A stretch of DNA of 64,000 bases from Mucilaginibacter sp. OK283 (lineage in GTDB: Bacteria > Bacteroidota > Bacteroidia > Sphingobacteriales > Sphingobacteriaceae). The notes under the pieces were generated by a model. The model saw only the letters and a program-made list of their open reading frames with translations. It made no database searches and was not told the origin of the DNA. Positions 40,539 through 62,389 of the stretch are shown piece by piece. Each line of letters begins with the position of its first letter. Positions within the stretch are counted from its first letter, which is position 1. Position numbers and translations under genes: made by a program. Location of the stretch: NCBI RefSeq assembly GCF_900110415.1, contig NZ_FODR01000015.1, positions 62,001 through 126,000 of the forward strand, given 5' to 3'.

Positions 40539-40724
40539 TTATATCCTTTATACTTGCATGAGTCAAAAGATTTAAAATAGCCCACAAGAATTTCAAATAA
40601 ATTCACTTTTTATTAATAATAGTACATTTATTCCACCTGTCGAAAGTAATTATGGTAACAAAACGATAAAAAAGATAAAATATAGACACTTTTAACTAAC
40701 ATTAGAAGACCAAAAGCATTTTCA

Positions 40725-41661: not shown

Positions 41662-41802
41662 TTAGCAATTCAAGAACGTGGTGATCAATGGCTCCGGAAT
41701 ATCCATCCTTAATAGCAATAAATTCCGCGAAGTGCCAATGTGATGATCCGCCGGCCGCGCATAAACCTCGTCTCCAATTTTAAATTGGTGCACTCTGGCC
41801 AT
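41662..41802 (-). CDS. small hypothetical protein, possible DUF2158-like fragment
   Basis: 46-aa frame starting MARVHQFKIGDEVYARP. The FKIGDEV opening is like the small YodC/DUF2158 proteins, but the remainder does not match well. It may be a genuine small gene or a degenerate remnant; a longer in-frame start 42 bases upstream is possible. The stretch 41803-41931 has nothing recognisable. Confidence 0.25.
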   Translation of the reverse strand: MARVHQFKIGDEVYARPADHHIGTSRNLLLLRMDIPEPLITTFLNC

Positions 41803-41931
41803 CAATTTACAAAATCTTAAATTATATACAAAAAACCGTCCCATAATTTTATTTATGAGACGGCCTCTTTTTCTTTTTATAGCTGCAGAAAGAATATTTA
41901 TTTGCCAGCTGGTGCTTTTACGCCCTTTTTA

Positions 41932-42675
41932 CTATCGTTTCCGGGAAGTTTTAACGAGTTTGTTTGATAAATATTTTGAAAAACTTTCCCGATAAAGTTC
42001 GCCCACTGTAAAACATAAGCTATTCACCATCTTTACTGTGCCGCCTTCGATATAGTCGATGCAGTCGGTGGAGACGATGAACGCGCGATGAAATTGTTTA
42101 AAGCTATCCCGTGAGCCTACAATATCCATTATGTCCTTTAGTGTCAGGTATGCTGTTAACACCTTACCGTTTGTCAGGTAAATTTTAACATAATTTTGAG
42201 CGCTTTCAAAAGCTATTATTTCATTATACCTCACTTTAATTATCCTTAAGTCCTCCTCTTTATTCTTCACCAAAAAATAATCATCTCCGGAGCCGACATC
42301 ATTTGTTTTCTCTCCCATTCCAACAGGAAACAGACGGCTGATTGTTGTTGAGAATTTTCCGAAACTGAAAGGCTTAAGCAAAAATGCATCACCTTCAACT
42401 TCAAATGCATCAAACGCATATTGTGAATGAGACGTAGTAAAAACTAATTTTTTTGTTTTTGATCGTAACGCACGAGCCAACTCGATACCTGAAATATAAG
42501 GCATATCAATGTCCATAAAAAGCAGGTCTAACTCATTGATCAGCCCAACTTGCTCCAAAGCTTCCTGCGGATTAGTATACACTCCTACTACATCCAGTCG
42601 TGGTAAAAGCTTTATATATCTTAATAGCGAATTGACTGAAAATTCTTCATCGTCTATTATAGCGCATTTTAGCAT
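41932..42675 (-). CDS. LytTR-family response regulator 1
   Basis: 247-aa two-domain regulator. The receiver domain (about 1-120) has the acidic pair at Asp8-Asp9, the phosphoacceptor Asp55 (LLFMDIDMP) and the Lys101-type KPF. The C-terminal LytTR DNA-binding domain (about 140-240) has FLVKNKEEDLRIIKVRYNEI and FKQFHRAFIVS. It is paralogous to the divergent regulator at 43144. The kinase gene at 44154 is the obvious partner. Confidence 0.9.
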   Translation of the reverse strand: MLKCAIIDDEEFSVNSLLRYIKLLPRLDVVGVYTNPQEALEQVGLINELDLLFMDIDMPYISGIELARALRSKTKKLVFTTSHSQYAFDAFEVEGDAFLLKPFSFGKFSTTISRLFPVGMGEKTNDVGSGDDYFLVKNKEEDLRIIKVRYNEIIAFESAQNYVKIYLTNGKVLTAYLTLKDIMDIVGSRDSFKQFHRAFIVSTDCIDYIEGGTVKMVNSLCFTVGELYRESFSKYLSNKLVKTSRKR

Positions 42676-43143
42676 AATTGGTTTATTATAATCTATATTA
42701 TACCCCAGCGGTAAGGCCAGTTATTTTTACTAAACAAAGCAAATATTTTAACATTCAAAACAGCCCTTTGGCGCACAACCGCGAAATTTGGCAACTATAT
42801 CATATATTCTTACAAAAAACAAGACAGTTGCTGTCTCCTTTCGCCTGGGATACCAGAATCATTGCAAAAGATTTAAATACGCCGCTAATAATATAACTCC
42901 ATAAAAAAACATCTACAATCAGGGAGATAAATGCCGCAATTTATCCGTATAAAAATTAATAAGTGTAATATTTATACAAAACGATATACTTTCTACATAA
43001 ACAGGGCTTTTTTCTTTATTTTCCTTTGTCAAAAAACATCAATAAACGTATGGGGTCTGTCCAATTGTGTTTTATATTTAATATCTTAATAATCTTTTAT
43101 ATTTAATATCTTAATAAATTAAACTGAGTTTTTTATTTGCAAA
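42676..43143. other. divergent regulatory gap between the two LytTR regulators
   Basis: A 468-base AT-rich stretch with no good gene. It contains a near-perfect 25-base tandem direct duplication just before the second regulator. The start regions of both regulators face it, so it probably carries two promoters. Confidence 0.5.
43070..43117. repeat. 25-base tandem direct repeat upstream of the second regulator
   Basis: Copy 1 is 43070-43094 and copy 2 is 43095-43117 (23 bases matching). It sits 27-74 bases before the regulator start, where a promoter or activator site would be. Confidence 0.8.
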
Positions 43144-43887
43144 ATGAGCAGCTACAAGTGTATTATAATTGATGACGAGCCCTACGCAATTGAAGGCTTA
43201 AAAAAGTATATTAACGAGGTGCCCCACCTTAAACTACTTAATTGCTACACCGACCCGGTGGAAGCTTTACTTGGTTTTGCAAATATGGATATCGTCGATC
43301 TTGTATTTATGGATGTTGAAATGCCCCGCATAACCGGTCTTGAACTGGCAAAAGCGATAAGACAGCAAACACATAAGCTTATTGTAACAACTGCCCACAC
43401 CCGTTACGGTTACGAAGCATTTGAAGTTGCTGCTGACGCTTATCTCCTGAAACCCTATACGTTCTTTAAATTTGCTGCGACAATAGCCAAACTTTTCCCC
43501 AAAGCAATTAACGGGGATGCTGACGCCCATGAAACGGACGATTTCTTTTTCGTAAAAAATAAAAATGATAACCTGAAAATAGTAAAGATAAAGTATGCCG
43601 AGGTTGTGGCCGTTGAAAGCAAACAAAACTATGTAATGATACACACCACTTCGAAGAAGGTGATGACATACATGTCGTTGAAAGAGATTTCACAGGTATT
43701 CAACCGGATAACAAATTTTGTTCAATTTCAGCGTAGTTTTATCCTTAGCAAAGATCATATAGAAAGTATTGATGGGAATACGATCAAAATGACTACCGGA
43801 CTTGACATTACCGTGGGCGATTATTACCGAAAAAATTTCGCCGCTTTTATGGCCGAAAAGCTGATTAAGGCAGGGCGCAAAGACTAA
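43144..43887 (+). CDS. LytTR-family response regulator 2
   Basis: 247-aa paralogue of the regulator at 41932. The receiver domain has Asp10-Asp11, phosphoacceptor Asp57 (LVFMDVEMP) and KPY in place of KPF. The LytTR domain spans about 140-240 (FFVKNKNDNLKIVKIKYAEV, FVQFQRSFILS). It is on the same strand as the kinase but separated by a 266-base gap holding a minus-strand small frame. Confidence 0.9.
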   Translation: MSSYKCIIIDDEPYAIEGLKKYINEVPHLKLLNCYTDPVEALLGFANMDIVDLVFMDVEMPRITGLELAKAIRQQTHKLIVTTAHTRYGYEAFEVAADAYLLKPYTFFKFAATIAKLFPKAINGDADAHETDDFFFVKNKNDNLKIVKIKYAEVVAVESKQNYVMIHTTSKKVMTYMSLKEISQVFNRITNFVQFQRSFILSKDHIESIDGNTIKMTTGLDITVGDYYRKNFAAFMAEKLIKAGRKD

Positions 43888-43906
43888 TTTGCACCCAGCC
43901 TTAATT

Positions 43907-44056
43907 TTACTGTAAACGAGGCTTATTAAACCCTCCTGTTTTGGTAAAAGTAACCATACTGGTAGTGGGGTCAGTTTCAGTTGAGGGGTGGGTGTTTCTG
44001 GTGGCTTTGTACACAAACAATGTAGTACAGTTAATTTTAAATGACTTGGTTTTCAT
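43907..44056 (-). CDS. 49-aa Thr-rich small peptide, candidate RiPP precursor or signal
   Basis: A small frame, too short for most gene finders, from ATG at 44056 to TAA at 43907. It starts MKTKSFKINCTTLFVYK (Lys/hydrophobic, leader-like), and the second half is rich in Thr/Ser (HPSTETDPTTSMVTFTKTGG). The MKTKSFK opening and Thr-rich tail resemble small Bacteroidota lanthipeptide-type precursors in general form; I cannot confirm a family. It lies within the RiPP locus, between a regulator and its kinase, antisense to nothing. It has only one Cys, in the leader. Alternatives: a signalling peptide, or chance. Confidence 0.45.
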   Translation of the reverse strand: MKTKSFKINCTTLFVYKATRNTHPSTETDPTTSMVTFTKTGGFNKPRLQ

Positions 44057-44153
44057 AGGATTTGTTATTTTTTCGAAACTTATATTGATTTTTCCCTAAA
44101 AGAAAACCCACTATGCATAACAGTTAAATTTCTATACAAAAGCACTATACGGC

Positions 44154-45317
44154 ATGAAAAGCATTAATCTACAATGGCTAAAAAAATATAAACAGCACTT
44201 AATCGTCTGGGCGTTATTTATACTGTATGAATCCATTGTGATAGGGCTGGTTACCGGGCAGTTTGGGAACCCCTTAACCTATGCAGCGCATTATTTCATC
44301 ATTGCATTTTTATTTTACCTTCACGCAAACTATGGCCTGCCTTGGGCATTATCAAGTACCAGGGCCGCTATATGGCGGGTACCTCTTACATTTATCGGTG
44401 AAATATCACTATTTGTATTGATGTCGTATACGGCTGACGCGCTGCTTATTAAAAGCCATATTATTACCGATAGTCCCAATTTTAAGTTATCATATCAGTA
44501 CAGCCTTAAAACATTATACAGGGGGATTTATTTTATCGGTTTTTCTACTGGATATTTTTTTATTCTCAGATATAATAACGAGAAACAGAAAACCAGCGAG
44601 CTTGAAAAGCAGCGGCTTGAAAATTTAATTTACAGACAAAATGCTGAACAAGAACTAATTAAAGCACAAAATGCTTTCTTAAAGGCGCAGATCAATCCAC
44701 ATTTCCTGTTCAATACACTTGACTTTATATATCACAATATTGTAACTATTTCTCCGGTGGCTTCCGACGCCGTAATTACCTTGTCTGAAATGATGCGCTA
44801 TGCAATAGACTCGGATAAAATAGGCGATTATATCTGCCTTGATGAAGAAATAACCCAGGTAAACAATTTGCTATACCTAAGCCAGATGCGAAAAAGCAAT
44901 AATCTGGGCTTTGAGCTTAAGGTAGCCGATGATGCCCGTAGGGTGTATTTGATACCTTTGGTATTGTTAACCCTTGTTGAAAATATTTTTAAACACGGCA
45001 ACCTCACAGAGCCAGGACACGAGTCTTTGGTGAATATATATATAAGGGATGATATCTTTTATATCGAGACGGATAACATGATCAACTATTCGGGGCCGAA
45101 ACCCGGAACCCAAACCGGCTTAATCAATATTAAAAAACGCCTGGTATACGCTTACGGCAACCTTGTTGATTTTAAATATTATACAGACGGTACTGATAAG
45201 CATTTCAAACTTAGCCTTGCTATTCCGGTGGCCTGTTTAAAAGGGCCCGGCGTGTCTGCAAAATCTTCAAAAGATAATGATAAAGAACCGCTTCGTGGGC
45301 ACGCTGATTGGCATTAA
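44154..45317 (+). CDS. LytS-type sensor histidine kinase
   Basis: 387-aa membrane histidine kinase. Four N-terminal membrane helices (to about residue 140), a coiled-coil linker, then the His_kinase domain with the phosphoacceptor His183 (AQINPHFLFNTLDF) and a HATPase end (VLLTLVENIFKHGN). It probably phosphorylates one or both LytTR regulators. Its last about 33 codons run antisense to the 3' end of the LanB gene, a 98-base convergent overlap; that tail lies past the catalytic domain. Confidence 0.88.
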   Translation: MKSINLQWLKKYKQHLIVWALFILYESIVIGLVTGQFGNPLTYAAHYFIIAFLFYLHANYGLPWALSSTRAAIWRVPLTFIGEISLFVLMSYTADALLIKSHIITDSPNFKLSYQYSLKTLYRGIYFIGFSTGYFFILRYNNEKQKTSELEKQRLENLIYRQNAEQELIKAQNAFLKAQINPHFLFNTLDFIYHNIVTISPVASDAVITLSEMMRYAIDSDKIGDYICLDEEITQVNNLLYLSQMRKSNNLGFELKVADDARRVYLIPLVLLTLVENIFKHGNLTEPGHESLVNIYIRDDIFYIETDNMINYSGPKPGTQTGLINIKKRLVYAYGNLVDFKYYTDGTDKHFKLSLAIPVACLKGPGVSAKSSKDNDKEPLRGHADWH

Positions 45318-48039
45318 AAAGGCGGTTAATATGCATATGAATAACATCTGCTATCAGTTGATGGCGCGCCGTACCGCTTTGGCAGGTATCCATAATACGT
45401 TTAAATAGTTTAATGTATGCAGCAGGTAAAAACCTTTCGTTTCCATAATCAGGCTGCGGGAACCGTTTTTTTAATTCAGCATAATCCAGGTTCAGCTTTT
45501 TGAACGCCTCAGCGCCCATGCCAAATTCGGCGCTGAAACCGTTAGCCATCGCACGCGCAAAAGCTATCTGTTCATCAATGCAATCAAGGCTGCATTGAAG
45601 TAGTTCTGCCATTAACTGAAGGCTTTGAATATATAAATTGTTATTTGGTGTTGAATTGGCAATCTGCTTTAACACATATTTACTGTCTGCAAAAAAAAAG
45701 GATTCGATCAGGGGCATCCTGTCATATCCGTAGCGTTCTGTTTCTCTAAAGTAGGTTTTGATCTGAACATCGGTTATCAGCCCGTTTGAAAAATCAGGTG
45801 TGAGAAAAATATTCAATTTACGGATTAGATGGGCGCCGCCTTCTAGTTGCTTCAATTGCAGCCTAAGTCTAATATGCGGTTTAGGATCCTCATAACGTAT
45901 AAAAAACCATTTCTTTACATCCCATTTAACATCCCGCAGGAAAAGGCTCAACCTGTTTGTTAAAAGGTTGTTTGCCCTTGTGGTGCTACAATATATTTCA
46001 AAATAAACCCAATCGCCACCGGGCAAAATGTTGCTGCTTTTCATATCCGTGTTTGCTGATGCCGATCTGCTAACCATAACATCATCATATACAGCCCCTT
46101 CATGAGTATAATTTAAAATATATTCTGTAGCATACACCCTACCCTGGCTGTCACTTAATCCATCGGCGTTGCTAATGAGGGCCTCGGTAATATAAATTTC
46201 CTGTTGACTGTATTGTTTGCAATAAGCCGAAAAAGCATCCATATCGGCGTCTTGCTTGGGGTTAAAACATAAAGTTTGATCACCAAAGCCACTTTTAAAC
46301 AAGAAGTCGATCCCCTTCCCGGCAAGCCACCCTATGAGGTTATGTTTTAGGTTTTCTGGTGCGCGGGTTTTGTATACTGATTGAGGGAGTTTCCAGGAGG
46401 CTCTTGCAACAATAACATCTTTATACACTACCCTGGGGTAATAATCCAGGCCAGGAAAAAAATGCTGTATTTTAAAGTTAAGATCGGAACTGATTTGTTG
46501 ATGTTGGAGATCGCAAAGGAAACGGTATACCGCGAGGTCAGAACGAGTATAGTTGTAAGCCGAAGGGATGCGTGGCACTATCCTTTTATTAAATTGTTTT
46601 GACCAGAGGATAATTTGGTTGCCATTTACGGATACCAATACCTCATGAAGTAGCAGAGGCTCATTGTTACATGACCATGTGAGTATAGGCATTTCATGCT
46701 TATACAATTGCCCGCGGCGATTAACATTATCAACCTGTTTTTCGGCCTGGTAGGCAATGTCGAAAAACAGGACGCCAGGATTAGCATCCTGTTCAATTTC
46801 AGCCAGTTCACGGGATATTTGCCCCAATTGGTCATTGGATATAGTAAAACGGCCCAGTAGTGTGTTGGCTGTGCAACCGCCGGCATTTTCAATAACCGGC
46901 TGATTGTTCCAAAAATGCATTAAAACATTAAATGTATTAGGCAAAGGGTAAACCTCATTTATCTCGTTGTTGCTAAACTCATCAAGCCTGATTACTTGTT
47001 TGTATAAATTATTCAGTATAAACTTATGAAGTCCGGTATAGCCGGCAACTTGCTGCGGCGCTTCAGGTTTATTCTCTGCGTTTAACATAACAGGTTTTTC
47101 ACCCACATATTCCTCGCCCAGGTTTCCATACCCGATGCCTAATTCGGGGTCAAGGGCAATAGTAAGCGGAACGCCCCTGCCCTCAAACTTCTTTAAGAAT
47201 GCACCTCTGAAATCATTTAGCATATTATTTGTTTGCCTGGGCAGGTGCACAGCTAAAAAATTAAGTATTTCGGGAACATTCTTAAGTTTCATTTTTTCAA
47301 TTGCACCCGAAACCACGTTCCGGCTGGCGATGATATAATCGTCGCCCTGTGGCAGGTAGCCTATCCTCCTGAAATAATCAGGCCCGGTTATATTAGGATG
47401 TTTATCGGATAACAAAAGCTGAAGCTCAATAAGTTGCTTAAGCAAAGCGTACACCTCCCGCCGTTTTAAACAAAATTCCGAAAACATAAACTTACAAATA
47501 TCTTCATTAGCTGCTTTTTGGCTACAAAACGCTAAAAGCGCATCAAGTTCTGCAAAGCCGGGGGCCGATGCGATTTCAAAGCATCCATCATTTACCCTGA
47601 TATACCTGTACCCGGTACCGATTTTATAAAGTGAGGTGTTTGTTTGAAACCATGGTATGCTTTTTACCAAACCAGGTATGGCTTTAGTATATGTATCCTT
47701 ATGCTGCCATCCTGTAAACCGGTGTAGTTCCATTTTATTGTCTATAATCGCTCTGTTGCCTGGCTCTCCGGTAGCTCTTAACATAGATATTGCCGCGAAA
47801 TTTCCGTAGGGCGTTGCCCGGTATTTTGCCCGGTTAAAATATTTCCAAACCGAAAAACCGACTTTGCTTAAATCACCATGCAATTGCACCAAATCCAGTT
47901 CATGAATCACCTGGTAAAAATCAGGAGATGCCTCTTTGATCATTTCTTTCAAATCCCCGGCCTTTTGTTCAAGCGTGTCTGTCAAACTAAAGGCAGGTGT
48001 CCGGCAAAGAATTGCCGGGTGTAATTTTAGCTTTATCAT
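45220..48039 (-). CDS. LanB-type lantibiotic dehydratase
   Basis: 939-aa full-length dehydratase with the glutamylation N-terminal domain (from SKVGFSVWKYFNRAKYRATPY, residues about 60-650) and the elimination domain of SpaB_C type at about 660-930 (WVYFEIYCSTTRANNLL, RYEDPKPHIRLRLQL). Such enzymes use glutamyl-tRNA to convert Ser/Thr of a precursor to dehydroalanine/dehydrobutyrine. It is divergent from the first precursor gene across a 352-base gap. No LanC cyclase gene is found in the window. Its 3' end overlaps the kinase gene. Confidence 0.9.
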   Translation of the reverse strand: MIKLKLHPAILCRTPAFSLTDTLEQKAGDLKEMIKEASPDFYQVIHELDLVQLHGDLSKVGFSVWKYFNRAKYRATPYGNFAAISMLRATGEPGNRAIIDNKMELHRFTGWQHKDTYTKAIPGLVKSIPWFQTNTSLYKIGTGYRYIRVNDGCFEIASAPGFAELDALLAFCSQKAANEDICKFMFSEFCLKRREVYALLKQLIELQLLLSDKHPNITGPDYFRRIGYLPQGDDYIIASRNVVSGAIEKMKLKNVPEILNFLAVHLPRQTNNMLNDFRGAFLKKFEGRGVPLTIALDPELGIGYGNLGEEYVGEKPVMLNAENKPEAPQQVAGYTGLHKFILNNLYKQVIRLDEFSNNEINEVYPLPNTFNVLMHFWNNQPVIENAGGCTANTLLGRFTISNDQLGQISRELAEIEQDANPGVLFFDIAYQAEKQVDNVNRRGQLYKHEMPILTWSCNNEPLLLHEVLVSVNGNQIILWSKQFNKRIVPRIPSAYNYTRSDLAVYRFLCDLQHQQISSDLNFKIQHFFPGLDYYPRVVYKDVIVARASWKLPQSVYKTRAPENLKHNLIGWLAGKGIDFLFKSGFGDQTLCFNPKQDADMDAFSAYCKQYSQQEIYITEALISNADGLSDSQGRVYATEYILNYTHEGAVYDDVMVSRSASANTDMKSSNILPGGDWVYFEIYCSTTRANNLLTNRLSLFLRDVKWDVKKWFFIRYEDPKPHIRLRLQLKQLEGGAHLIRKLNIFLTPDFSNGLITDVQIKTYFRETERYGYDRMPLIESFFFADSKYVLKQIANSTPNNNLYIQSLQLMAELLQCSLDCIDEQIAFARAMANGFSAEFGMGAEAFKKLNLDYAELKKRFPQPDYGNERFLPAAYIKLFKRIMDTCQSGTARHQLIADVIHMHINRLFNANQRAHEAVLYHYLLKILQTRRALLNRPPE

Positions 48040-48391
48040 AGGTTTCGTTTAGTAGGTGTTAACCTGTTTTTTTACACTAATCAATAATTTAAGAATGTCT
48101 TTACACATAATTTTCTATGCATTGGCCTGTTTTCGGGGTAAAAAGGGTAAAATTCAGGATACAAAACAGGTGCTTTTTAACGCAAAAAAAATCCTTGTTA
48201 GTTAACTTTAATCCGATCGCTTTAATCAGTGCTCAACCCCGGCTTTATATCGGGAATAGCGAAAAACACCCTGAGGGGGCATAGCCGGTGCCAATGGCAC
48301 AAATAACGGAAAATACCCCAACCTGGTAAGTAAAGTTTAATTAATGTTTTATAAATGTTGTCGGATTTTTTAAATCAAAAAAGCTAAAAAA
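48040..48391. other. divergent promoter gap between LanB and precursor genes
   Basis: A 352-base region without a gene. It has a short hairpin-forming pair near 48234 and gtgcc/ggcac near 48290. No clear TAnnTTTG element was found for either gene. It presumably holds both promoters and may be the target of the LytTR regulators. Confidence 0.4.
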
Positions 48392-48601
48392 ATGAAAAAC
48401 AAAAACCTTAAAGGCCTCATGGCTTTGAAAATGGCAGAAAGCCATGAGCGGCCAACAGAAGTAACCATCCTTAACCAGGATGAACTAAATTTTGCTATGG
48501 GTGGTAGCGTAGCGTCAGATTGTCCAAAACTCACTTCATGCGGTACCTACGATTCCTGCGGTGACAAATGTTTTGCCGACAATGTAACTGTTGGTTTATA
48601 A
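48392..48601 (+). CDS. RiPP precursor peptide 1 (GG leader, 4-Cys core)
   Basis: 69-aa precursor. A 38-residue leader ends NQDELNFAMGG, a double-glycine site for the C39 exporter. The 31-residue core has Cys44, Cys50, Cys56 and Cys60 (C-x5-C-x5-C-x3-C) and seven Ser/Thr (39, 42, 48, 49, 52, 55, 66) as possible dehydration sites. The motif CGTYDSC is shared with the other two precursors. The leader resembles GG-type Bacteroidales precursors. Confidence 0.9.
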   Translation: MKNKNLKGLMALKMAESHERPTEVTILNQDELNFAMGGSVASDCPKLTSCGTYDSCGDKCFADNVTVGL

Positions 48602-48783
48602 ACATCCAAATTAACCTAAACCATGATCGCGTTAGTCAAAATTAATCGCCGCAAAAGGTAAGCCCGGTCAAGCATCTTTAAAAAATCATTCAGCAGATTT
48701 TATCGGCTGAACAGGACTACTTATGCCCGAAAATTATGATCGCGCCCATGGCGATTTGTTTATCCATTAAATAAAAACATAAA

Positions 48784-48993
48784 ATGAAAAACAAAAATTT
48801 GAGAGGCCTGATGGCCACAAAACTTGCCGAAAACAATGCAAAACCAGCCGAAGTGAGCATCCTTAACCAGGACGAGCTCATTTATGCAATGGGCGGTAAT
48901 GTTTCATCCAGTTGTCCAAACTTAACGTCATGCGGCACTTATGATTCGTGCACCGACAAATGCTTTGCCGACAACGTTAAAGTAGGTATTTAA
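48784..48993 (+). CDS. RiPP precursor peptide 2
   Basis: 69-aa near-copy of precursor 1 with the same leader length (ending NQDELIYAMGG), the same 31-residue core length and the same four Cys positions. Core changes are mainly N/S/T swaps (NVSSSCPNLTSC against SVASDCPKLTSC, CTDKC against CGDKC, and VKVGI against VTVGL). The Ser/Thr count differs at several sites, so the final products would differ. It is separated by 182 bases from precursor 1; no gene is in the gap. Confidence 0.9.
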   Translation: MKNKNLRGLMATKLAENNAKPAEVSILNQDELIYAMGGNVSSSCPNLTSCGTYDSCTDKCFADNVKVGI

Positions 48994-49227
48994 TTCTAAG
49001 CAATATCCTTAGCTGCCTGCCTTTCTGATGTTTACATAAAGCATAAACTTTAATCAACTCATCCAATAACATTTGGGCATCTGGTAGCGGGCAGCAAGGA
49101 TTTGCTTATGGTTTTTCATTTTTTTTGGCAACTCATTATTATCAATTTAAGACATAACCGGCCGGTTTCGGCAGAGCCTGAAAAACAACAGTACTAAACA
49201 AGTTATAAAAATTTAAAAGCAACAATT

Positions 49228-50601: not shown

Positions 50602-50625
50602 TCTTTAACCTTTAATCTTTTTGCC

Positions 50626-51594: not shown

Positions 51595-51676
51595 TCAACT
51601 AACTCCGGTAATTGGATAGTAACCATCCCGTTACTGGTTGAAAGCAACAAAAGATCAATATTTTAATAATTTTCAT

Positions 51677-53863: not shown

Positions 53864-53882
53864 TACCAAAATATAAATAAAC

Positions 53883-55424
53883 ATGAAGTACATTCAATCC
53901 TACTGGAGTTTACCTTGTATTAAAACATATGAAAATGAGTACAGCCGCTTTCGCGGCGGATGGGTAACCGAAAAACATCATGCCATTAGCTGCGCACTAA
54001 GCCTGTTGCTGCTACAAAAATACAACACAGGCACGCCTGTAACCTTATATACCGATAATCAGGGATTTGACTGGCTAATCAATAAACTTTCCCTTCCTTA
54101 CGATGACGTAAAAGTTGAACTTGACTGCATTAACCATATCGATCCGCTATTATGGTCAATGGGTAAAATATATACTTACAGCCAGCAAAATGAGCCTTTT
54201 TTGCACATAGATAACGACGTGTTTATGTGGGAGCCATTTGACAGGAAACTACTGGCCAAACCACTTATTTTTCAAAACTTTGAGGTAAACCATGGCATTT
54301 ACGAACAATTATATCAAGAAGCTACAAACAAAAACTTCATATTACCTGGTCAGTTTACCGAAGGCATGAACATAAATGCCGAACTAACAGCTATAAATGC
54401 CGGTATTATAGGCGGCCACGATATTGAATTTTATAAAAACTATTGTGCCCAGGCTTTTGAATTTGTAAAACAAAATGAACACAACATACTCAATTCATCT
54501 CTGAAAGGCGCCTATAACCTGTTTTTTGAACAACTTTTTTACGCCAAGTTTCTGTTTATGAAATATGGTGATTACCAGAGTGCTACAGGAGCCTTATTGA
54601 GTGACAATGAAGGCCATATGTATAAGCTTACTTCTTTTGGGCTTGTACCCCAGGTTCAAAAATACATACACATGATAGGGCAGGCCAAATCTCATATCAA
54701 ACTGGCATTACATATGGAAGAACGCTTTTCATTTGAGTTTCCACGTTACTATAAGCATATCAGCAATATCTACAAAAATCAAAAGATTTATAGCCCAACT
54801 CCTTCCATTCCGCCCGACTGGCAGGCCAGCAGCTCAAACAACCGTTTTGGTTATTGCGAAAGCTATATAAAAAAAATGGGCCACCATATAAACAATGTCG
54901 ACGGAGATGTTATCGAAGCGCTCCTGGAAGATAATTTTGATAACAGCGAATACCACAAGCTATGGGACCTTTACCAGGTTGAATGGGCGATAATGAACCT
55001 TAAGCCGGCAACTGCCTATTGTAACAGCCTTACCTACCTGTATGAATATGACATCAACGATTTCCTGGACCTTAAATTCAAAATAAATGAAGACTCATGC
55101 CAGATTATACATCTTTATTATGAATGGCCGCACGATTTAACAACCAGGAATGTAGCGGCTTTAATAGACGATAAAGTGCCGGGTACGGGTAATCTATTAC
55201 CGTACCTCATTTGCCGTGAAAACAACAGGTTTAAACTGATCTTGTTAAAAAACTGGTTTATGGTATTTGATTTAATTAAGGACCAGGAACTTAATGGAAA
55301 AGAGATAATTAAAATCATGAGTACCCATGACGAAGTAAAAATAGAAGTTGACTCCATAAACGATGGTCTTTATCATTTTTTGTCGAGCCAGGCTTTTGTA
55401 TACAACAGGCTTTTGGTAGCCTAA
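53883..55424 (+). CDS. glycosyltransferase-like protein (DUF6734-like)
   Basis: 513-aa protein. The N-terminal about 250 residues look like a GT-A-type glycosyltransferase: a D-x-D motif (Asp110-Asn-Asp112 in HIDNDVFMWEPF) follows several beta-alpha segments. It resembles, to my recollection, Bacteroidota DUF6734 proteins. The C-terminal half has no recognised motif. It lies between the exporter and the outer-membrane protein, so a sugar addition to the peptide or to a partner is possible, though this is inference. Confidence 0.6.
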   Translation: MKYIQSYWSLPCIKTYENEYSRFRGGWVTEKHHAISCALSLLLLQKYNTGTPVTLYTDNQGFDWLINKLSLPYDDVKVELDCINHIDPLLWSMGKIYTYSQQNEPFLHIDNDVFMWEPFDRKLLAKPLIFQNFEVNHGIYEQLYQEATNKNFILPGQFTEGMNINAELTAINAGIIGGHDIEFYKNYCAQAFEFVKQNEHNILNSSLKGAYNLFFEQLFYAKFLFMKYGDYQSATGALLSDNEGHMYKLTSFGLVPQVQKYIHMIGQAKSHIKLALHMEERFSFEFPRYYKHISNIYKNQKIYSPTPSIPPDWQASSSNNRFGYCESYIKKMGHHINNVDGDVIEALLEDNFDNSEYHKLWDLYQVEWAIMNLKPATAYCNSLTYLYEYDINDFLDLKFKINEDSCQIIHLYYEWPHDLTTRNVAALIDDKVPGTGNLLPYLICRENNRFKLILLKNWFMVFDLIKDQELNGKEIIKIMSTHDEVKIEVDSINDGLYHFLSSQAFVYNRLLVA

Positions 55425-55446
55425 AGCAAACACAACCCCAATAAAT

Positions 55447-57855
55447 ATGACTATAACTAATACAAGTTTCTGCCGAAAAATATGCTTAGCTTTTTTTTTC
55501 TCGTTCCTGTGCGCTGCCACGCATGCACAGCTACACATAAAGGGTTTTATAAAGGATAGCACAGAAGTATCCATTCCTGGTTGCTCTGTTAAGCTAACTT
55601 CGGGCACAGATATAAATTTCGCACAAACAACGTCAACGGATAAAGACGGAGCGTTTAAAATAAGCCATTTGCAAAAGGGGGTTTACAACTTGACCATAAC
55701 GAACGTGGTTTATAATACTTTATCGATAAAAATTAACCTGACAAACGATACCAACCTCAATATAAAATTAACAGAACGTATCAACTCACTGTCGAAAGTA
55801 ACAATCACAGGCAATAAGCGCCTGCTTGAGCGTAAGCGCGACAGGTTTGTTTTCAATGTTTCCAATTCGCCATTTACGCTCGGAAATAATGTTTTTGAAG
55901 TGTTAAGGCAAACACCGATGGTACAACTAACAGACCAGGGGGCATTAAACATTCTTGGGAACCCGCAAAATGCAACTGTTTTCATTAACCGGAAAAAGTT
56001 TCCGCTTTCGGGTGAAGACTTAGCCAATTTTTTAAAGAATATGCCGGCCGATAACATCCTGCAGATTGAAATTCTCAGCATCCCTCCTCCTTACTATGAT
56101 GTAAACGGGCCGGTTATCGATATCATCCTGAAACACCTTGATATAAATGGTATCAGAGGTTCAACATCCCTTGCTTATGAACGGGCCAGTGTAAACAGGG
56201 GCATTTTATCAAACAATCTCGATTTTAATTCCAATCGTTACAACCAGACTCTTTCAATCGGGCTTAATGACGGCGACTATTTTAAAACCATCGGAAAAAC
56301 CACCAATTTTTATGGCGCACAGCCGTCGACAGTAACATCTGACGTTAATACGCGGGCTAACCGCAAAGGGATAAATATATACACAGATCTGCGATACAGT
56401 TTAACCCCCGTTTTAACTATCGGAACGCAGCTGATAACCAACAACTCGAAAACTAACAGCAATGGCGACGGTGCCGAAACTATTGAACCTGCCGCTATCA
56501 ATTCAAATTATCTGCAGGTTGACCACGTAAAAAACAACCTGCTATCAAACAATGCCTTTCTGAAATACAACTCGGAAAAAAAACAAACCTATTTTGAATT
56601 AAGTACAGACTATTTAAAGGCAGATATGGACCAGAATAACCGCTTTAACAGTAACCTCGAGGGCGGCAATTACCAAAACATATCGCCACAACACATACGT
56701 AACTATGCTATTAAAACCGATTTTTCAAAACCTGTTGTTGCAAAGGTTCTGTTAACAAGCGGCCTCAGGTATAGCAACTCAACCATAAACACGCCTTACC
56801 AGGCCTTCGACCTGTCAAATAACCAAATCAGGCCGCTCGACGAATTCTCCGCCGATTTCCATTACAGCGAGAAGATCTATTCAGGATATTCAACCCTCGA
56901 ACGGGATTTCGGCAAAAAATGGTCGGCAAAAATAGGCCTGCAGGCAGAGCATAGTCATATCAATACCGAAACCCGCGCGGTCACTTTGCAGGCCAATAAG
57001 CAGGATTACACTTTTATTTTCCCGTTGGGCTATCTCAACTACAGTCCTGACGATAACAATTCGTTTTCGCTCACATCCAAAATAAATAACAGCCGCCCCG
57101 GCTACAGCTATCTCAACCCGGCAAGGCGATTGATTGGCAGCCGGACTATCACCGAAGGCAACCCTTATCTCAACCCTTCAAACGGCGGCATAGTTGAGCT
57201 GATGTATAGTTTAAAACAAACCTATTACTGGGGGCTTACTTATACACAAAACAATCGCTTGTTCAGCCAGATTAACCAGGTTATTAACCAGGATACTTTA
57301 TTAATTAAATGGCAAAACTGGGGGAATCAAAAACAGTATAACTTTTGGTTTTTTACCCAGCATAATATGTTTAATAATCATTGGAGCGCCTCAATAAATA
57401 CCAACCTGGGCTATTACCACCGGAGCTATAACACCAGCATTACCAACTCGGCTGCGTCAAACAGCAATGTGCAATTATTTGCTTCTTTAAATAATTCATT
57501 TAGCAAAATTGGTTCTAAAAACCTTAGTCTTTATTGTAACATGAGCTTCAATACACCAGGCAGGTATGGCTTGTGGAAAGACAACACCAGCAGTTACCGG
57601 GTGGACCTGGGCGCGAATTATAATGTTCCTAAAAGCAATTTCAGGCTTTCACTCGCAGTGAACGATTTACTAAAATATAACGACAGGCATGTATACAACA
57701 TTAACCAAACCGATGATCAGTACACAAGGGTAATAACAAACAGCGATGCGCGAAGCGTCAGGCTAACAATCAGCAAAACATTTGGCAACCTGAAAGTGAA
57801 GAAGATTGATAAGCGAAACACCAGTAACGAAGATGAAAAACAGCGAATAAAATAA
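55447..57855 (+). CDS. TonB-type outer-membrane protein of the RiPP locus
   Basis: 802-aa outer-membrane beta-barrel protein. Signal peptide about 1-27, then a carboxypeptidase-regulatory-like domain (about 30-110), a plug-like region (DRFVFNVSNSPFTLGNNVF, about 125-230) and a barrel of the OMP_b-brl_3 kind. No SusD partner is present. It begins 22 bases after the glycosyltransferase-like gene. It could export the peptide across the outer membrane, import it, or be its receptor. Confidence 0.85.
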   Translation: MTITNTSFCRKICLAFFFSFLCAATHAQLHIKGFIKDSTEVSIPGCSVKLTSGTDINFAQTTSTDKDGAFKISHLQKGVYNLTITNVVYNTLSIKINLTNDTNLNIKLTERINSLSKVTITGNKRLLERKRDRFVFNVSNSPFTLGNNVFEVLRQTPMVQLTDQGALNILGNPQNATVFINRKKFPLSGEDLANFLKNMPADNILQIEILSIPPPYYDVNGPVIDIILKHLDINGIRGSTSLAYERASVNRGILSNNLDFNSNRYNQTLSIGLNDGDYFKTIGKTTNFYGAQPSTVTSDVNTRANRKGINIYTDLRYSLTPVLTIGTQLITNNSKTNSNGDGAETIEPAAINSNYLQVDHVKNNLLSNNAFLKYNSEKKQTYFELSTDYLKADMDQNNRFNSNLEGGNYQNISPQHIRNYAIKTDFSKPVVAKVLLTSGLRYSNSTINTPYQAFDLSNNQIRPLDEFSADFHYSEKIYSGYSTLERDFGKKWSAKIGLQAEHSHINTETRAVTLQANKQDYTFIFPLGYLNYSPDDNNSFSLTSKINNSRPGYSYLNPARRLIGSRTITEGNPYLNPSNGGIVELMYSLKQTYYWGLTYTQNNRLFSQINQVINQDTLLIKWQNWGNQKQYNFWFFTQHNMFNNHWSASINTNLGYYHRSYNTSITNSAASNSNVQLFASLNNSFSKIGSKNLSLYCNMSFNTPGRYGLWKDNTSSYRVDLGANYNVPKSNFRLSLAVNDLLKYNDRHVYNINQTDDQYTRVITNSDARSVRLTISKTFGNLKVKKIDKRNTSNEDEKQRIK

Positions 57856-57880
57856 TCTCTTTAAAAATAATCCTTAAACC

Positions 57881-58111
57881 ATGAAATCAAAACTTCTTAA
57901 ATCACTGTTTCTGAATAGGCTGAATGCCGACTTGACTCATCCCCAAAACCAGGTAACCATACTAAATGCCGAGGTTATAGATATGCTGTATGGTGGCGTA
58001 CGCAGCTTTAACGAATGTGCAACCCACTCGGGGTCGTGCTCAGAGCTGACAGCCTGTGGCACCTATAACTCCTGTAGTGACAAATGCGTGATTAATAGCC
58101 AGGCAGCCTAA
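57881..58111 (+). CDS. RiPP precursor peptide 3
   Basis: 76-aa precursor, 25 bases after the outer-membrane protein gene. The 39-residue leader ends VIDMLYGG. The 37-residue core has five Cys (46, 53, 59, 65, 69; C-x6-C-x5-C-x5-C-x3-C) and shares the LTACGTYNSC block with precursors 1 and 2 (LTSCGTYDSC). Leader and spacing differ from the first two, so it is a diverged paralogue. It is the last gene of the plus-strand run. Confidence 0.85.
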   Translation: MKSKLLKSLFLNRLNADLTHPQNQVTILNAEVIDMLYGGVRSFNECATHSGSCSELTACGTYNSCSDKCVINSQAA

Positions 58112-58206
58112 AACGAACGTATTTAACCCTGCAATATCTTTGAAAAGAGCAAGGGGCTGTTCCCTAACGCATAACAGCCTCCTGTTGCTTTCAGTCAAAT
58201 TTATAA

Positions 58207-58743
58207 CTATAGATCGTTGTTATTGAGTATGCCCGTTATCGTTGCCTCAATCTCTTTATTCGAGACGATTTTGTATTGCACGGAATTGAAATTTAGCACC
58301 CCATCGATAACAGATCCTTTGTTATCGTAACGCTTTCCGGTTATTTCAATAGCGCGGTTGGCCGATATTACCCCATCAAATTTGCAGGGAAAATTTCTTT
58401 GTTTTCCCGTACCTATGTTTGTGACTGACAGATAACTATAGGAAGAATTGACATAAAGGATCATCGAGTAAAGGATCTTTTTGTTTTTTTCCACTGTGAA
58501 TGAATCTGTTTTAAATATGGTTGCAGCTTTTAAAATATCATCCATCCCTGGTTTTTTTGACAGGTATATGGCGCTGTTATTATTGTTAATATTGCCATCA
58601 AGAGGGATATAATAATCCTTCACTAAAAAACCTCCATTTTCAAAGCTTAGTTTTTCGTATGAATTGACTGACGGGTTGTTTTTTGTTTGCCCGAAAAGGC
58701 CGAATGGCAATGTGGTGATAAAAATGGCTGATAGTATTTTCAT
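58207..58743 (-). CDS. small secreted hypothetical protein
   Basis: 178-aa protein with a signal peptide (MKILSAIFITTLPFGLFGQ) from the ATG at 58743; the longer in-frame start is not needed. The mature part is rich in Ser, Asn, Lys and Ile with no recognised domain. It lies downstream of the RiPP plus-strand genes in convergent orientation, with a 96-base gap. Its product may be an immunity protein for the RiPP, but nothing proves it. Confidence 0.6.
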   Translation of the reverse strand: MKILSAIFITTLPFGLFGQTKNNPSVNSYEKLSFENGGFLVKDYYIPLDGNINNNNSAIYLSKKPGMDDILKAATIFKTDSFTVEKNKKILYSMILYVNSSYSYLSVTNIGTGKQRNFPCKFDGVISANRAIEITGKRYDNKGSVIDGVLNFNSVQYKIVSNKEIEATITGILNNNDL

Positions 58744-59065
58744 AAGAGTCTTTTTTTTAAAGACGAATAAACCCGGCAATTGGTTGCAAAAAATATTATC
58801 GTTGCTTACCAACTGTTGAATAAAAGTAGTCCCGCCAAAGTGAGATTTTTTTGCTTTTAAAACTTACAGAAAGCTGTCAAAGTAATCGAACATGCCTGAT
58901 TCAAAATTAGGCGTACTGTTACAGATACCGGAGGCTGAATCCCTCCCTCTTCGCAATAACACATTGCAAAATCCAGCCTTACTTTCCAATTTTTGAAAGC
59001 ATCTTCAAAAATATAATCTATTCAAAATATTGTAGCGGCTTTCTTATAAAACAGTTATTATCGCA
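58744..59065. other. gap without recognised gene
   Basis: A 322-base AT-rich stretch between the small secreted protein and the ABC ATPase genes. A minus-strand open frame of about 50 codons without a start crosses it, but I do not recognise it. No clear promoter or terminator is seen. Confidence 0.35.
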
Positions 59066-59746
59066 TTATGATACAATTTCCCCATCCTCCATTTGAATGA
59101 TTCTATCAGCCCGGTTAGCAAAGTCAGGGTCATGGGTTACCACCAGGATGGTTTGTTTATTTGTCATGCAAATTTCTTTAAAAATATCAAAAACGATATC
59201 TGTGTTTTTTTTATCGAGGTTTCCTGTGGGTTCATCAGCCATTACAATTAGCGGATCGTTAATAAGGGCTCTTGCAATGGCCACACGTTGCTTCTGTCCG
59301 CCACTGAGTTGATTGGCATTTTTTAGCGCCTGATCTGCTATTCCTAATGTTTTTAAATGCTGCATCGCTTTTTGTTCTATCTCTTCATAAGCATACTTAC
59401 CCAGTTTCATAGCAGGCAACATCACATTTTTTAATACATTAAACTCTTCAATCAGGTAATGAAATTGAAATACAAATCCGATCTTTTGGTTACGGACATT
59501 CGCCAATTCAGTAGCATTTTTTTGGTGCAGTGGCTCATTATCCAACAACACCTCGCCCTCGTAATCGGTATCCATTGTGGAAAGAATATAAAGTAAAGTT
59601 GATTTTCCACAGCCAGATTTACCCGTAACCGACACAAAGCTTCCCTTTTCGATACTAAAGCTGACGTCATTTAAAACGCGAAAACGAACAGGATCTGTAA
59701 AATATTTATTTATAGCAATCGCCTGCAGAACCGGTGTTTCTATCAT
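59066..59746 (-). CDS. MacB/LolD-type ABC transporter ATPase
   Basis: 226-aa ATPase with Walker A GKSGCGKST, signature LSGGQKQRVAIARAL and Walker B LIVMADEPTGNLD, typical of the LolD/MacB/FtsE branch. Its start overlaps the permease gene by 4 bases. With the permease and adaptor it forms a MacAB-like tripartite pump, transcribed toward the RiPP locus from the right. Confidence 0.92.
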   Translation of the reverse strand: MIETPVLQAIAINKYFTDPVRFRVLNDVSFSIEKGSFVSVTGKSGCGKSTLLYILSTMDTDYEGEVLLDNEPLHQKNATELANVRNQKIGFVFQFHYLIEEFNVLKNVMLPAMKLGKYAYEEIEQKAMQHLKTLGIADQALKNANQLSGGQKQRVAIARALINDPLIVMADEPTGNLDKKNTDIVFDIFKEICMTNKQTILVVTHDPDFANRADRIIQMEDGEIVS

Positions 59747-61002
59747 TTTCCTCTTATTATGCCAACAGGATCAATTTTTGCCGCTTTGCGGGCCGGTAAC
59801 AAGCCGGCAAAGTAAGTGGTAATAAGGGCAAAGCCTACGCCAATAACGTAATATATAAGCTCAAAATTTACAGGATACGTTTTGATAGTAGGCAAAGCCG
59901 TGGTTTTGAACGAAATATGACTGATAATAAGCGACATGCAATAACCTAATAATACACCAAAAACACCGCCCACAACACCAAGTGTCATTGATAATTGGAT
60001 AAAAATTGCTTTAACATCCTTTCCCGAAAACCCGGTGGCTTTCAAAATGGCGATGGTATCCATTTTTTCATAGATCAGCATGTTCAAAATATTATATATT
60101 CCAAAACCGGCAACAATTAACAAAGCGACGCTTACGCTATAAGCGATGATGTTCCGTACATTGGTACCTGTTTCAAACTGGGCATTTGCTGTTTGTATAT
60201 CAATAGCATTTACGCCAAATAACCTGGCGTATTCTTTTGAAACGGCTGGAGCAAATGCTATGTTTTTTAATTTGACTTGTATATCGGTAATGTAGCCGGC
60301 TGCTTTACCCTGCAGTTTTTGAGCGGTTTGCACCGAGGTGAAACTTTGCACATCATCTACTTCGGCTATTCCGAACTGTACTATTCCTATTATTTTCAGC
60401 ATCGACATTTCACCGTCGGCAGTTGTAACCCTTACCATATCGCCTATGTTTAAGATCAATTTGTCTGCAAGCCCTTTTCCAATTATTATACTGTTGCTGA
60501 CAACACCAAGATCGCTGATATTACCTTCGATAACGTTGTCATTTAAATTAAATAGCTTTTGCTCCAGTTCAACATCTATCCCGTCAACAATACCCGATAT
60601 CTGAATAGTCCCGCTGTTAAAAAAAACAGAAGTACTTATTTTAGGTGCAACATCAATAACACGCTCATCCGCACGGATGGCTTTAATTATGCGCATCGCG
60701 TTATAAATTTGTTTTCCATCGTCTTTCGGCTTTACCGATTGAATAAAGTTCCTGAACGCTCCAAATTCGGCAGCCATGTTAACCGGTTGTATTTTTGACG
60801 GTGCAATTGCATTGTATAGCCTGATGTGCGGAGTGCGGTTAATAACCAAACTGTCTAACATCTTATTTAATCCGGTCATAAAACTAATAAGGGCTATAAA
60901 CATAGCAATGCCGAAGGTAACGCCGGCAGCAGCCACCACCGATTGTTTTAACCGTGCTTTTAACAATGCCAATGCAATAGTCAGAAGTAAACCTGTTTTC
61001 AT
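59743..61002 (-). CDS. MacB/FtsX-type ABC transporter permease
   Basis: 419-aa permease with one N-terminal helix (about 15-40), a large periplasmic MacB-PCD-like domain (about 45-260) and three C-terminal helices including YSVSVALLIVAGFGIYNILN and GVFGVLLGYCMSLIISH. The FtsX-type ending LLPARKAAKIDPVGIIRGK is intact. It is coupled to the ATPase by a 4-base overlap. Confidence 0.9.
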   Translation of the reverse strand: MKTGLLLTIALALLKARLKQSVVAAAGVTFGIAMFIALISFMTGLNKMLDSLVINRTPHIRLYNAIAPSKIQPVNMAAEFGAFRNFIQSVKPKDDGKQIYNAMRIIKAIRADERVIDVAPKISTSVFFNSGTIQISGIVDGIDVELEQKLFNLNDNVIEGNISDLGVVSNSIIIGKGLADKLILNIGDMVRVTTADGEMSMLKIIGIVQFGIAEVDDVQSFTSVQTAQKLQGKAAGYITDIQVKLKNIAFAPAVSKEYARLFGVNAIDIQTANAQFETGTNVRNIIAYSVSVALLIVAGFGIYNILNMLIYEKMDTIAILKATGFSGKDVKAIFIQLSMTLGVVGGVFGVLLGYCMSLIISHISFKTTALPTIKTYPVNFELIYYVIGVGFALITTYFAGLLPARKAAKIDPVGIIRGK

Positions 61003-62088
61003 TTATTTGGGTTTATAAATTGTTTGCAAGGTATCCAGGCCCCGTAGTATCTCGATGTTTTTTTCATCTTGCACCCCGGTAATCACTTTCATCTTAATAT
61101 GCCCCGACAACCATACGTTATTATTCTTATCTAAATAATTCCTGGGAATTAGAATTGCGTTTTTTGCTACCCTTACAATAATATTCACCTCTGCGGTTAA
61201 ATTGGGGTACAGCTTCCCGGGAGGATTGGAAAACAAAGCTTCCACCTTAAAAGTTCGTGAACGCTGGTCCATAATAGGATAAATTTTACTAACCCGTCCC
61301 TGAAATAAACGACCTTTATAACTATTCATAGTAATTTCTACCTGTTGACCTAATTTTACCCCCGTGATGTCATGCTCATCAACATTCATTTCTAAGTAAT
61401 ACAAATCTGGTTTTCCCAAAACAGCCAATGGTGTCTGTGATGTGATCAGCTCACCTTTATTTTGAATTACGTCAAATATTTTTCCGTCAATTTCACTTTT
61501 AATTAAATAGTCTGTTTGGCGCTTTCGGCTGATGTTATAATTTATTTTGGATAGGTACAAATCATTTTTTAGCTGCTTTTTCAATTGCTCCAAACTTTTA
61601 ACCGTTGAAGCATAATTTATTTTTGAGGTACGAAATGCCAAATCGCGCTGGTCCAATTCTGCCCTGGTGCCAATATTTTGCTTCCACAAATTCTCCTGCC
61701 GATAATAAAAAGTGGAATCGAGCCGATATTTTTCTTTAGCGGCTTGTACAGCATACAAAGCCTCCTGCAACTGCCCGGAATTTTTTTGATCATTTGATGA
61801 TGCGAAGTTTAAGTGCTGGAGTGCATTTTCGGCATTTAATGCAGCCTCTTTATTTTCTAATATAAACAAGACATCGCCCTGTTTAACCAGGTCGCCAGGT
61901 TGTACGTTAACTTTGGCGATAATGCCCGGTACAGTTGATACCACGGTGTACTGATCTTTTGCTTTGACGTTTGCTGAAGCATATAAAGACACGGTAATAT
62001 CACTGATCGCCGCTTTAGTATGATCTTGCGGATCCGAGCATGAACTGATTAGGGAAAACAGAAGTATATAGTAAATAGTCTGCTTCAT
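61003..62088 (-). CDS. MacA-like periplasmic adaptor lipoprotein
   Basis: 361-aa membrane-fusion (HlyD/RND adaptor) protein. The ATG at 62088 gives a lipoprotein signal (LISSCSDPQDH) with lipobox Cys at about residue 17. A biotinyl-lipoyl-like domain (GIIAKVNVQPGDLVKQGDVLF) brackets a helical hairpin (about 90-180) and a beta-barrel domain. It joins directly to the FtsX-type permease, so the trio is a MacAB-type exporter that could carry the RiPP or give immunity. Confidence 0.88.
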   Translation of the reverse strand: MKQTIYYILLFSLISSCSDPQDHTKAAISDITVSLYASANVKAKDQYTVVSTVPGIIAKVNVQPGDLVKQGDVLFILENKEAALNAENALQHLNFASSNDQKNSGQLQEALYAVQAAKEKYRLDSTFYYRQENLWKQNIGTRAELDQRDLAFRTSKINYASTVKSLEQLKKQLKNDLYLSKINYNISRKRQTDYLIKSEIDGKIFDVIQNKGELITSQTPLAVLGKPDLYYLEMNVDEHDITGVKLGQQVEITMNSYKGRLFQGRVSKIYPIMDQRSRTFKVEALFSNPPGKLYPNLTAEVNIIVRVAKNAILIPRNYLDKNNNVWLSGHIKMKVITGVQDEKNIEILRGLDTLQTIYKPK

Positions 62089-62389
62089 TGATGGTAAATT
62101 TGCGTCCAAAGAGCTATTAAAAATCCACTGTAAGTAACAATAAATACCCAAACGGATTACTGATATCGCTCATATTTGAATGTGACCGGCGTCAAACCGA
62201 GATACGACAGCAATCGGTGCGATACATCAAAGGATTGCGCAAACCAATAAATTGAATGAGCAGGGTTATATCACATCCGACGTATTCAATGCCATGGTCA
62301 CTACGGCCACCCAATTTCCAAAAGTTTCGTAATGAGCGGATACCCAGTTGCCCATCATGAAACTTCGGTAAATTTTGCTTAAGTATTTT
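62089..62389. other. gap without recognised gene
   Basis: Between the adaptor gene start and the coiled-coil gene stop on the minus strand. Nothing recognisable; short frames on either strand have no match that I know. Confidence 0.35.

Follow-up and report, generated by a model that had tools for sequence, protein, structure and literature searches.

Can one peptide be dehydrated by a lanthipeptide dehydratase and crosslinked by a radical enzyme without a LanC cyclase? The question is raised by a locus for a ribosomally synthesized and post-translationally modified peptide (RiPP) in Mucilaginibacter sp. OK283, which lies in a stretch of 64,000 nucleotides of contig NZ_FODR01000015.1 (the window, to whose full length all coordinates refer unless another locus is named). 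Class I lanthipeptide loci normally contain both LanB and LanC. In this compact locus (41932-58111), a full-length LanB stands next to a radical SAM/SPASM maturase (rSAM, a term used here for maturases of the type found in this locus) and three precursors with a double-glycine (GG) leader. From what the sequences suggest, we regard it as likely that the locus makes a RiPP that is modified twice, being crosslinked and dehydrated, with no LanC taking part, and the arrangement probably makes a hybrid kind of peptide that has not yet been described.

Gene content of the locus

No match to LanC (PF05147) was found in the whole host genome (7,185,297 bases, 99.99% complete), which contains one LanB (PF14028) and one rSAM homologue at E 1e-30, with starts 1.2 kb apart. 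The original prediction, made from the window alone, had noted the lack of LanC there; the search beyond the window extends this to the genome, and a LanC encoded elsewhere in the host is thereby ruled out. Of the features that define a class I lanthipeptide locus, a complete LanB that has both its glutamylation and its elimination domain is present and LanC is absent. All genes that had been predicted (LanB, three precursors, rSAM, C39 exporter, DUF6734 protein, outer-membrane protein and a helical protein) are intact open reading frames (ORFs) at the expected places. The features of the locus are as follows (L and G numbers denote loci and genomes used for comparison).

41932-42675, minus strand: LytTR response regulator 1 (PF00072 8.6e-15, PF04397 7.3e-11), relatives of 54-56% identity in L021 and L023
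43144-43887, plus strand: LytTR response regulator 2 (PF00072 5.9e-16, PF04397 1.3e-14), relatives in L017 and L020-L023
44154-45317, plus strand: sensor histidine kinase (PF06580 3.4e-18), neighbour of LanB in L020-L023
45220-48039, minus strand: lanB, full-length class I lanthipeptide dehydratase (PF04738 2.5e-57, PF14028 4.2e-56)
48392-48601, plus strand: precursor A, GG leader, core SVASDCPKLTSCGTYDSCGDKCFADNVTVGL, itself one of the rows of the precursor profile that it matches
48784-48993, plus strand: precursor B, GG leader, core NVSSSCPNLTSCGTYDSCTDKCFADNVKVGI, matches the precursor profile, 74% identical to precursor A
49228-50601, plus strand: rSAM, ranthipeptide-like (PF04055, TIGR04085 for SPASM)
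50626-51594, plus strand: helical protein between rSAM and exporter, resembling tetratricopeptide repeats (TPR; weak match, 0.0015)
51638-53863, plus strand: C39 peptidase/ABC exporter (PF03412, PF00664, PF00005)
53883-55424, plus strand: DUF6734 protein (PF20508 1.1e-78) with conserved H-x-D-x-D
55447-57855, plus strand: outer-membrane beta-barrel protein (OMP_b-brl_3; PF14905 3.5e-61)
57881-58111, plus strand: precursor C, GG leader, core VRSFNECATHSGSCSELTACGTYNSCSDKCVINSQAA (precursor profile 1.6e-17)

The 3' ends of the histidine kinase gene and lanB overlap, and a gap of 352 bases separates the lanB start from the first plus-strand precursor; in this intergenic stretch we found no Bacteroidota promoter-like motif. 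The exporter ORF begins at a TTG (51638), position 51677 being an in-frame ATG.

Recurrence of the LanB-rSAM pairing

When 301 genomes of the host's family were searched for rSAM homologues at E 1e-30, 11 of them gave a match. Four (G231, G219, G162 and G192) hold the same gene set as the window, that is, response regulator, histidine kinase, LanB, outer-membrane protein (two ORFs in G231), precursors, rSAM and C39 exporter, with rSAM identities of 38-41%, and no LanC match was obtained in any of these four genomes. One of the 11 is the host genome itself, and in the remaining six the stretch read contained no LanB. A scan of a wider, one-genome-per-species collection returned no relatives with the window rSAM alone as query, and 77 named loci with an alignment of five rSAMs; the genes of loci were labelled by similarity to window genes. 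C39-exporter matches were present in 10/11 family loci and 36/49 Bacteroidota loci (some loci end at contig ends), and outer-membrane protein matches in 10/11 (as two ORFs in L020) and 37/49, respectively.

Whole genomes were searched for LanC and LanB behind 48 of the 77 loci (47 Bacteroidota genomes), leaving out L053, which shares its genome with L052, and 28 loci whose label was not Bacteroidota. The 47 genomes hold 66 LanB matches, 19 of them within 20 kb of an rSAM; 19/47 is a lower bound, some rSAM loci lying on short contigs or at contig ends (e.g. L055, 8.7 kb), and the rSAM positions behind the 20-kb counts are approximate. For six loci in which LanB crosses the locus edge, the identity of the contig was checked by its length and by reading the neighbouring stretch. 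The 19 rSAM-linked LanBs belong to seven genera (Chryseobacterium, Flavobacterium, Chitinophaga, Mucilaginibacter, Runella, Rhabdobacter and Dyadobacter) and one Bacteroidetes metagenome-assembled genome and, together with the window, G231 and G192, give 22 LanB-rSAM loci. A mere chance neighbourhood of the two genes was rejected, since the pairing recurs across genomes.

LanC was found within 20 kb in none of these 22 loci, and in 14 of the 22 genomes there was no LanC match anywhere. A LanC gene in the same locus of relatives had been named beforehand as a finding that would speak against the prediction; related loci contain none, and a LanC just outside them is ruled out over the same 20 kb. 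Among the 47 genomes, LanC lay within 20 kb of 0/19 rSAM-linked LanBs versus 25/47 other LanBs (Fisher p 1.5e-5, a value that takes no account of relatedness among the genomes and is indicative only). No LanC match was obtained in the genomes of 11 of the 19 rSAM-linked LanBs; the other eight genomes have a different LanB beside LanC. With regard to another conserved cyclase-like gene, clustering the unlabelled ORFs of the 22 loci gave no cluster present in all loci, the widest (13/22 loci) being an AraC-type regulator. Between outer-membrane protein and exporter, L020-L023 hold nothing but precursors and rSAM, except for a 118-residue unlabelled ORF on the opposite strand in L021. These four loci contain no homologue of the helical protein, homologues of which occupy the same position in L014, L017, L042-L047, L061 and L073.

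Placing the rSAM-linked label on a LanB tree (61 rows) takes 10 changes, at least 8 of them forced by starred branches, and placing the LanB-linked label on an rSAM tree (63 rows) likewise takes 10, of which at least 9 are forced (both quick LG+G4 trees with long branches flagged), indicating that the linkage has been gained or lost repeatedly. Several kinds of LanB are linked to an rSAM, namely a short Sphingobacteriaceae clade that includes the window, split enzymes in Flavobacteriales, and enzymes of full length in Dyadobacter, Chitinophaga and Runella/Rhabdobacter. The loci also vary in the order and orientation of their genes.

Additional genes were seen at some of these loci. The Runella/Rhabdobacter loci L062 (7457-8668), L064 and L080 carry a second radical SAM gene after LanB, the product of which in L062 is FxsB/YhhB-like (cyclophane type; below the cut-off), and L080 encodes at 17990-19003 a protein with a 2-oxoglutarate-Fe(II) oxygenase domain and a C39-like stretch. 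The Flavobacterium loci L093, L095, L106 and L111 combine a split LanB and rSAM with a prolyl oligopeptidase-like (S9) protein, an AraC-type regulator and two further proteins (u5 and u6); L095 and L111 also carry a gene of about 2,200 amino acids.

The two modifying enzymes

The closest solved chain to the window LanB is NisB (1.2e-24). Residues matching NisB R87, T89 and R464, which we take to serve glutamylation, as well as R784, R786, E823, R826 and H961, which we take to serve elimination, are all present. The same positions are intact in 22/22 rSAM-linked LanBs, and in LanC-linked LanBs R87 and T89 are intact in 16/21 and the remaining positions in 21/21. Because its catalytic positions are intact, the window LanB should function as a dehydratase rather than as a ligase of the peptide aminoacyl-tRNA ligase (PEARL) type. 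A PEARL-type short LanB is ruled out by the presence of PF14028 with R, R, E, R and H intact, and a YcaO pathway, as in thiopeptide or azole RiPPs, by the lack of any PF02624 match in the whole genome.

The rSAM shows the CxxxCxxC motif at residues 102-109 and SPASM cysteines at 340, 359, 405, 408, 414, 418 and 429, and these ten cluster cysteines are invariant in 35/35 aligned homologues. By profile, the closest solved enzyme is CteB (3.2e-16), followed by TigE (8vpo), ChlB and anSME; by fold, using a model with a predicted local distance difference test (pLDDT) score of 91.9, CteB again comes first, with TigE and anSME. The best NCBIfam model is TIGR04463 (rSAM_vs_C_rich), which scores 227 bits against a cut-off of 525 (223 and 195 bits for two relatives), and Clo7bot and CefB come next. 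Two hallmarks of ranthipeptide/sactipeptide loci are thus present, that is, CxxxCxxC with seven SPASM cysteines and a cysteine-rich precursor beside the maturase. The order of strands and helices in the first 70 residues fits a putative RiPP recognition element (RRE) that would bind the leader.

Precursors and their core motif

In seven LanB-linked loci (window, L020-L023, L054 and L100), 24 cores contain 42 C-x2-L-x2-C motifs, and all 42 are followed by x2 and an aromatic residue. A precursor profile was run against 399 family genomes, with at most 15 candidates scored per genome; 17 candidates from five genomes matched at E 3.5e-11 or better, and all of them are rows of the profile and lie inside LanB-rSAM loci. 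Four other genomes gave one weak match each (E 6.5e-4 to 9.5e-3, for the most part to the leader), and one of these matches adjoins another rSAM of the window family. Precursors that mostly occur without the rSAM in relatives, which had been named as a second sign against the prediction, are not what these family genomes show, as no strong match lies outside rSAM loci. Cores of other LanB-linked loci differ, being of the C-W-G-F/C-W-S-Y type in Chryseobacterium and of the C-P-x-S/T-N type in Runella, so that the LanB-rSAM arrangement recurs with several dissimilar cores. With a filter for GG plus cysteine, five LanB-linked loci yielded no precursor, namely L067 and the Flavobacterium loci L093, L095, L106 and L111.

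Proposed product and rival explanations

Since LanB has been repeatedly joined or lost, is catalytically intact and LanC-less, and stands beside a constant rSAM, a single precursor probably undergoes both crosslinking and dehydration. From the gene content, residues, recurrence and LanC absence observed above, we infer that both enzymes act on these precursors, and we propose the following bonds and order of events. The constant enzyme would be an rSAM of the thioether-forming (ranthipeptide/sactipeptide) type that acts on core cysteines and has C-x2-L-x2-C-x2-[Y/F] as its core signature; most likely it would link the sulfur of a Cys with a side chain, possibly that of the conserved Leu or aromatic residue, with loss of two H per link. 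The complete LanB, fed by glutamyl-tRNA, would dehydrate Ser/Thr residues of that core, such as the T/S of CPxL[T/S]xC, and the products would remain as dehydroalanine or dehydrobutyrine (Dha/Dhb) or be captured spontaneously by free Cys, without LanC. C39 would cleave after GG and then export the peptide, the outer-membrane protein and the LytTR system would serve secretion and control, and DUF6734 may add a further group. A broader claim, according to which these loci form a hybrid RiPP class recurrent in Bacteroidota that carries LanB-made dehydroamino acids and rSAM-made thioethers on one peptide, with the rSAM in LanC's place, is possible, and we hold it tentatively, at somewhat less than even chances.

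Several observations weigh against a twice-modified product. Six LanB-less loci (L049, L050, L051, L058, L059 and L112) contain C-x2-L-x2-C precursors together with the rSAM, three of them with the aromatic residue after the motif, and their genomes have no PF14028 match; LanB is thus not needed for the rSAM family, and the rSAM with its cysteine motif appears as the constant part and LanB as the recruited part. The earlier idea of LanB and rSAM without LanC as a unit therefore stands in so far as the combination recurs in 22 loci, none with LanC, and falls in so far as it made LanB a fixed partner. In the window, LanB lies on the strand opposite to the rest of the precursor-rSAM run. LanBs with neither LanC nor rSAM within 20 kb amount to 22/66, a common and largely unexplained group, and for that reason lack of LanC alone is not distinctive; the DNA around 20 of these 22 (all except those in G319 and G325) was read and contains no rSAM of the window family. 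Solitary units of LanB, histidine kinase and response regulator without rSAM occur in Pedobacter (L128, 9362-14434; L134, 7896-13088), where the stretches hold no LanC, rSAM or evident precursor and the flanking genes are alike in both. LanB can therefore travel as its own module, and these solitary LanBs may act in trans or have another role.

Other points concern the substrate and the partners. Ser/Thr follows the motif Leu in 25/42 motifs of LanB-linked loci versus 4/23 elsewhere (p 0.0015; per locus 0.013; C-x2-L-x2-C precursors passing the GG-plus-cysteine filter in 7 LanB-linked and 8 other loci), p values that ignore shared ancestry, and total Ser/Thr content is alike with and without LanB (p 0.30); furthermore, no Ser/Thr position is strictly conserved in the cores. 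Among the matches listed, all maturase-level NCBIfam matches of the rSAM are below cut-off. The helical protein (50626-51594) could be an unrecognised enzyme where it is present, and the class I peptide LanI-101 of Runella limosa underwent 4-6 dehydrations and formed 3 (methyl)lanthionines in E. coli, as reported in PMC9576775. The helical protein and the Runella result slightly lowered our confidence in the preferred explanation.

Of the competing explanations, the one that survives best is that the rSAM alone makes a ranthipeptide-like product and that LanB, derived from a separate module with histidine kinase and response regulator, is a passenger or serves another substrate. It accords with the six LanB-less genomes, with the stand-alone modules (L139 as well as L128 and L134) and with the lack of a conserved Ser/Thr. 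We nevertheless consider it unlikely, as LanB lies within 20 kb of the rSAM in at least 19/47 rSAM genomes, in several lineages and gene orders, which makes a chance landing improbable, as LanB active-site residues are kept in 22/22 cases, and as the host has no second LanB and, outside the locus, no match to the precursor family.

A true lanthipeptide, whose rings would close without LanC, either spontaneously or helped, e.g., by the helical protein, and on which the rSAM would be a side decoration, seems less probable still. Cores do hold Ser/Thr near Cys, LanB is intact with LanC nowhere in the genome, and the Runella locus, which may bear on this explanation, yielded (methyl)lanthionines. 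However, conservation in the cores is highest at C, L and C (plus Y/F in LanB-linked loci), and this does not depend on LanB. The loci were collected through their rSAM, so that the indispensability of the rSAM has no independent measure, a point that we also count against this explanation.

The boldest form, in which the rSAM functionally replaces LanC and closes a thioether onto a LanB-made dehydro residue by a radical route to lanthionine-like rings, would fit the mutual exclusion of LanC and rSAM around LanB (0/19 versus 25/47) and is nonetheless very improbable, since the rSAM family is kept in LanB-less genomes, where its ancestral substrate was likely an unmodified residue, and since such exclusion may simply reflect distinct types of pathway.

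DUF6734, locus boundaries and neighbouring genes

The motifs H-x-D-x-D and N-x-G-x-x-G-G are invariant in 15/15 aligned DUF6734 members, and by motif alone the protein would be glycosyltransferase-like; its profile gave no credible match among solved structures, and a model from a two-row alignment reached a pLDDT of 32.9. DUF6734 was found in 15/301 family genomes. In several of the 14 stretches read it stands beside small ORFs with GG leaders, and 7/14 hold an exporter-profile match; L205 holds LanB and LanC (LanC Pfam 1.7e-30) and L207 an rSAM-profile match. Of the rSAM loci that were set against the window, L074 alone showed DUF6734. DUF6734 looks like an accessory of exported-peptide loci. 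In L205 (2332-11748), the LanB-LanC locus with DUF6734 also has a luciferase-like monooxygenase (PF00296) adjoining a GG precursor. No paper on DUF6734 was found among open-licence literature.

The genome G300, of the same species, matches 58817-62899 at 97% identity and 62885-64000 at 96%, shows no near-identical match to 44001-58816 and matches 24501-44500 in diverged patches only. It has no rSAM homologue at E 1e-30 and carries four LanB and two LanC matches elsewhere. Because G300 shares the right flank without a near-identical 44001-58816 and without the rSAM, this comparison places the RiPP locus in a strain-variable region. The original prediction had treated 41932-62088 as one locus; its right part has to be excluded, as it belongs to the flank found in G300 and is absent beside L020-L023.

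59066-62088: ABC ATPase, FtsX/MacB-type permease and HlyD-like protein, part of the flank common with G300 (97%)

These genes are a separate, ordinary efflux unit outside the RiPP locus. An Rfam search of the window gave nothing beyond one tRNA gene (23135-23221), which lies left of the variable region and may be an integration site. Also left of the locus, at 39369-41303, a FecR-like protein and a sigma factor of the extracytoplasmic function (ECF) type stand beside a 1142-residue ORF, a pair that presumably represents an ordinary Bacteroidota arrangement.

Comparison with known systems

A LanB is commonly taken to imply a LanC partner, and loci of this kind are therefore likely to be classed either as incomplete lanthipeptide loci or as ordinary rSAM peptide loci; in open-licence papers we found no published description of LanB with an rSAM/SPASM maturase and without LanC. 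If both enzymes act on one peptide, this would be a natural system for asking how a dehydratase that depends on tRNA and a radical maturase that is sensitive to oxygen work on a common substrate, whether Dha/Dhb persists beside free cysteines and whether LanC's work can be done by a radical enzyme.

Ranthipeptide and sactipeptide loci (SCIFF maturase CteB, Clo7bot, TIGR04463, CefB) likewise combine a SPASM maturase with a Cys-rich precursor; the window differs in scoring less than half of the TIGR04463 cut-off, in its GG-leader C-x2-L-x2-C-x2-[YF] precursors and in having LanB alongside. In landornamide-type proteusins, a dehydratase and a radical SAM enzyme act on one peptide. The same holds for dehydrazole loci (PMC10676384), yet in both of these systems the dehydratase is LanM-derived, the radical SAM enzyme is an epimerase and the leader is of the nitrile hydratase-like leader peptide (NHLP) type. 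Thiopeptides, pyritides and pearlins (PMC11002830, PMC10676384) also employ a LanB-family enzyme without a cyclase, but their LanBs are split, truncated or short and have other partners, whereas the window LanB is full-length with elimination residues, in a genome without YcaO.

Many Bacteroidetes class I loci have GG leaders and C39 proteins, with radical SAM enzymes as occasional extras (PMC7268733; Walker et al., 2020). The window resembles these Bacteroidota loci, including that of pinensin, in its LanB, GG leader and C39 protease, and differs from them in that LanC is missing from locus and genome and the constant partner is the rSAM. The Runella limosa LanI-101 locus (PMC9576775) likewise encodes a LanB in a member of the Bacteroidota, and the LanB-rSAM loci L062 and L064 come from the same genus; it was assigned to class I, with 3 (methyl)lanthionines in its product, and may or may not be related to the LanB-rSAM loci. 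In a screen of Bacteroidales (PMC10352776), LanC-like proteins without LanB were reported in radical SAM areas, and no LanB in the screened genomes. Those areas, like the window, join a radical SAM enzyme to a lanthipeptide-type enzyme, and the window represents the reverse arrangement, with LanB in place and LanC missing.

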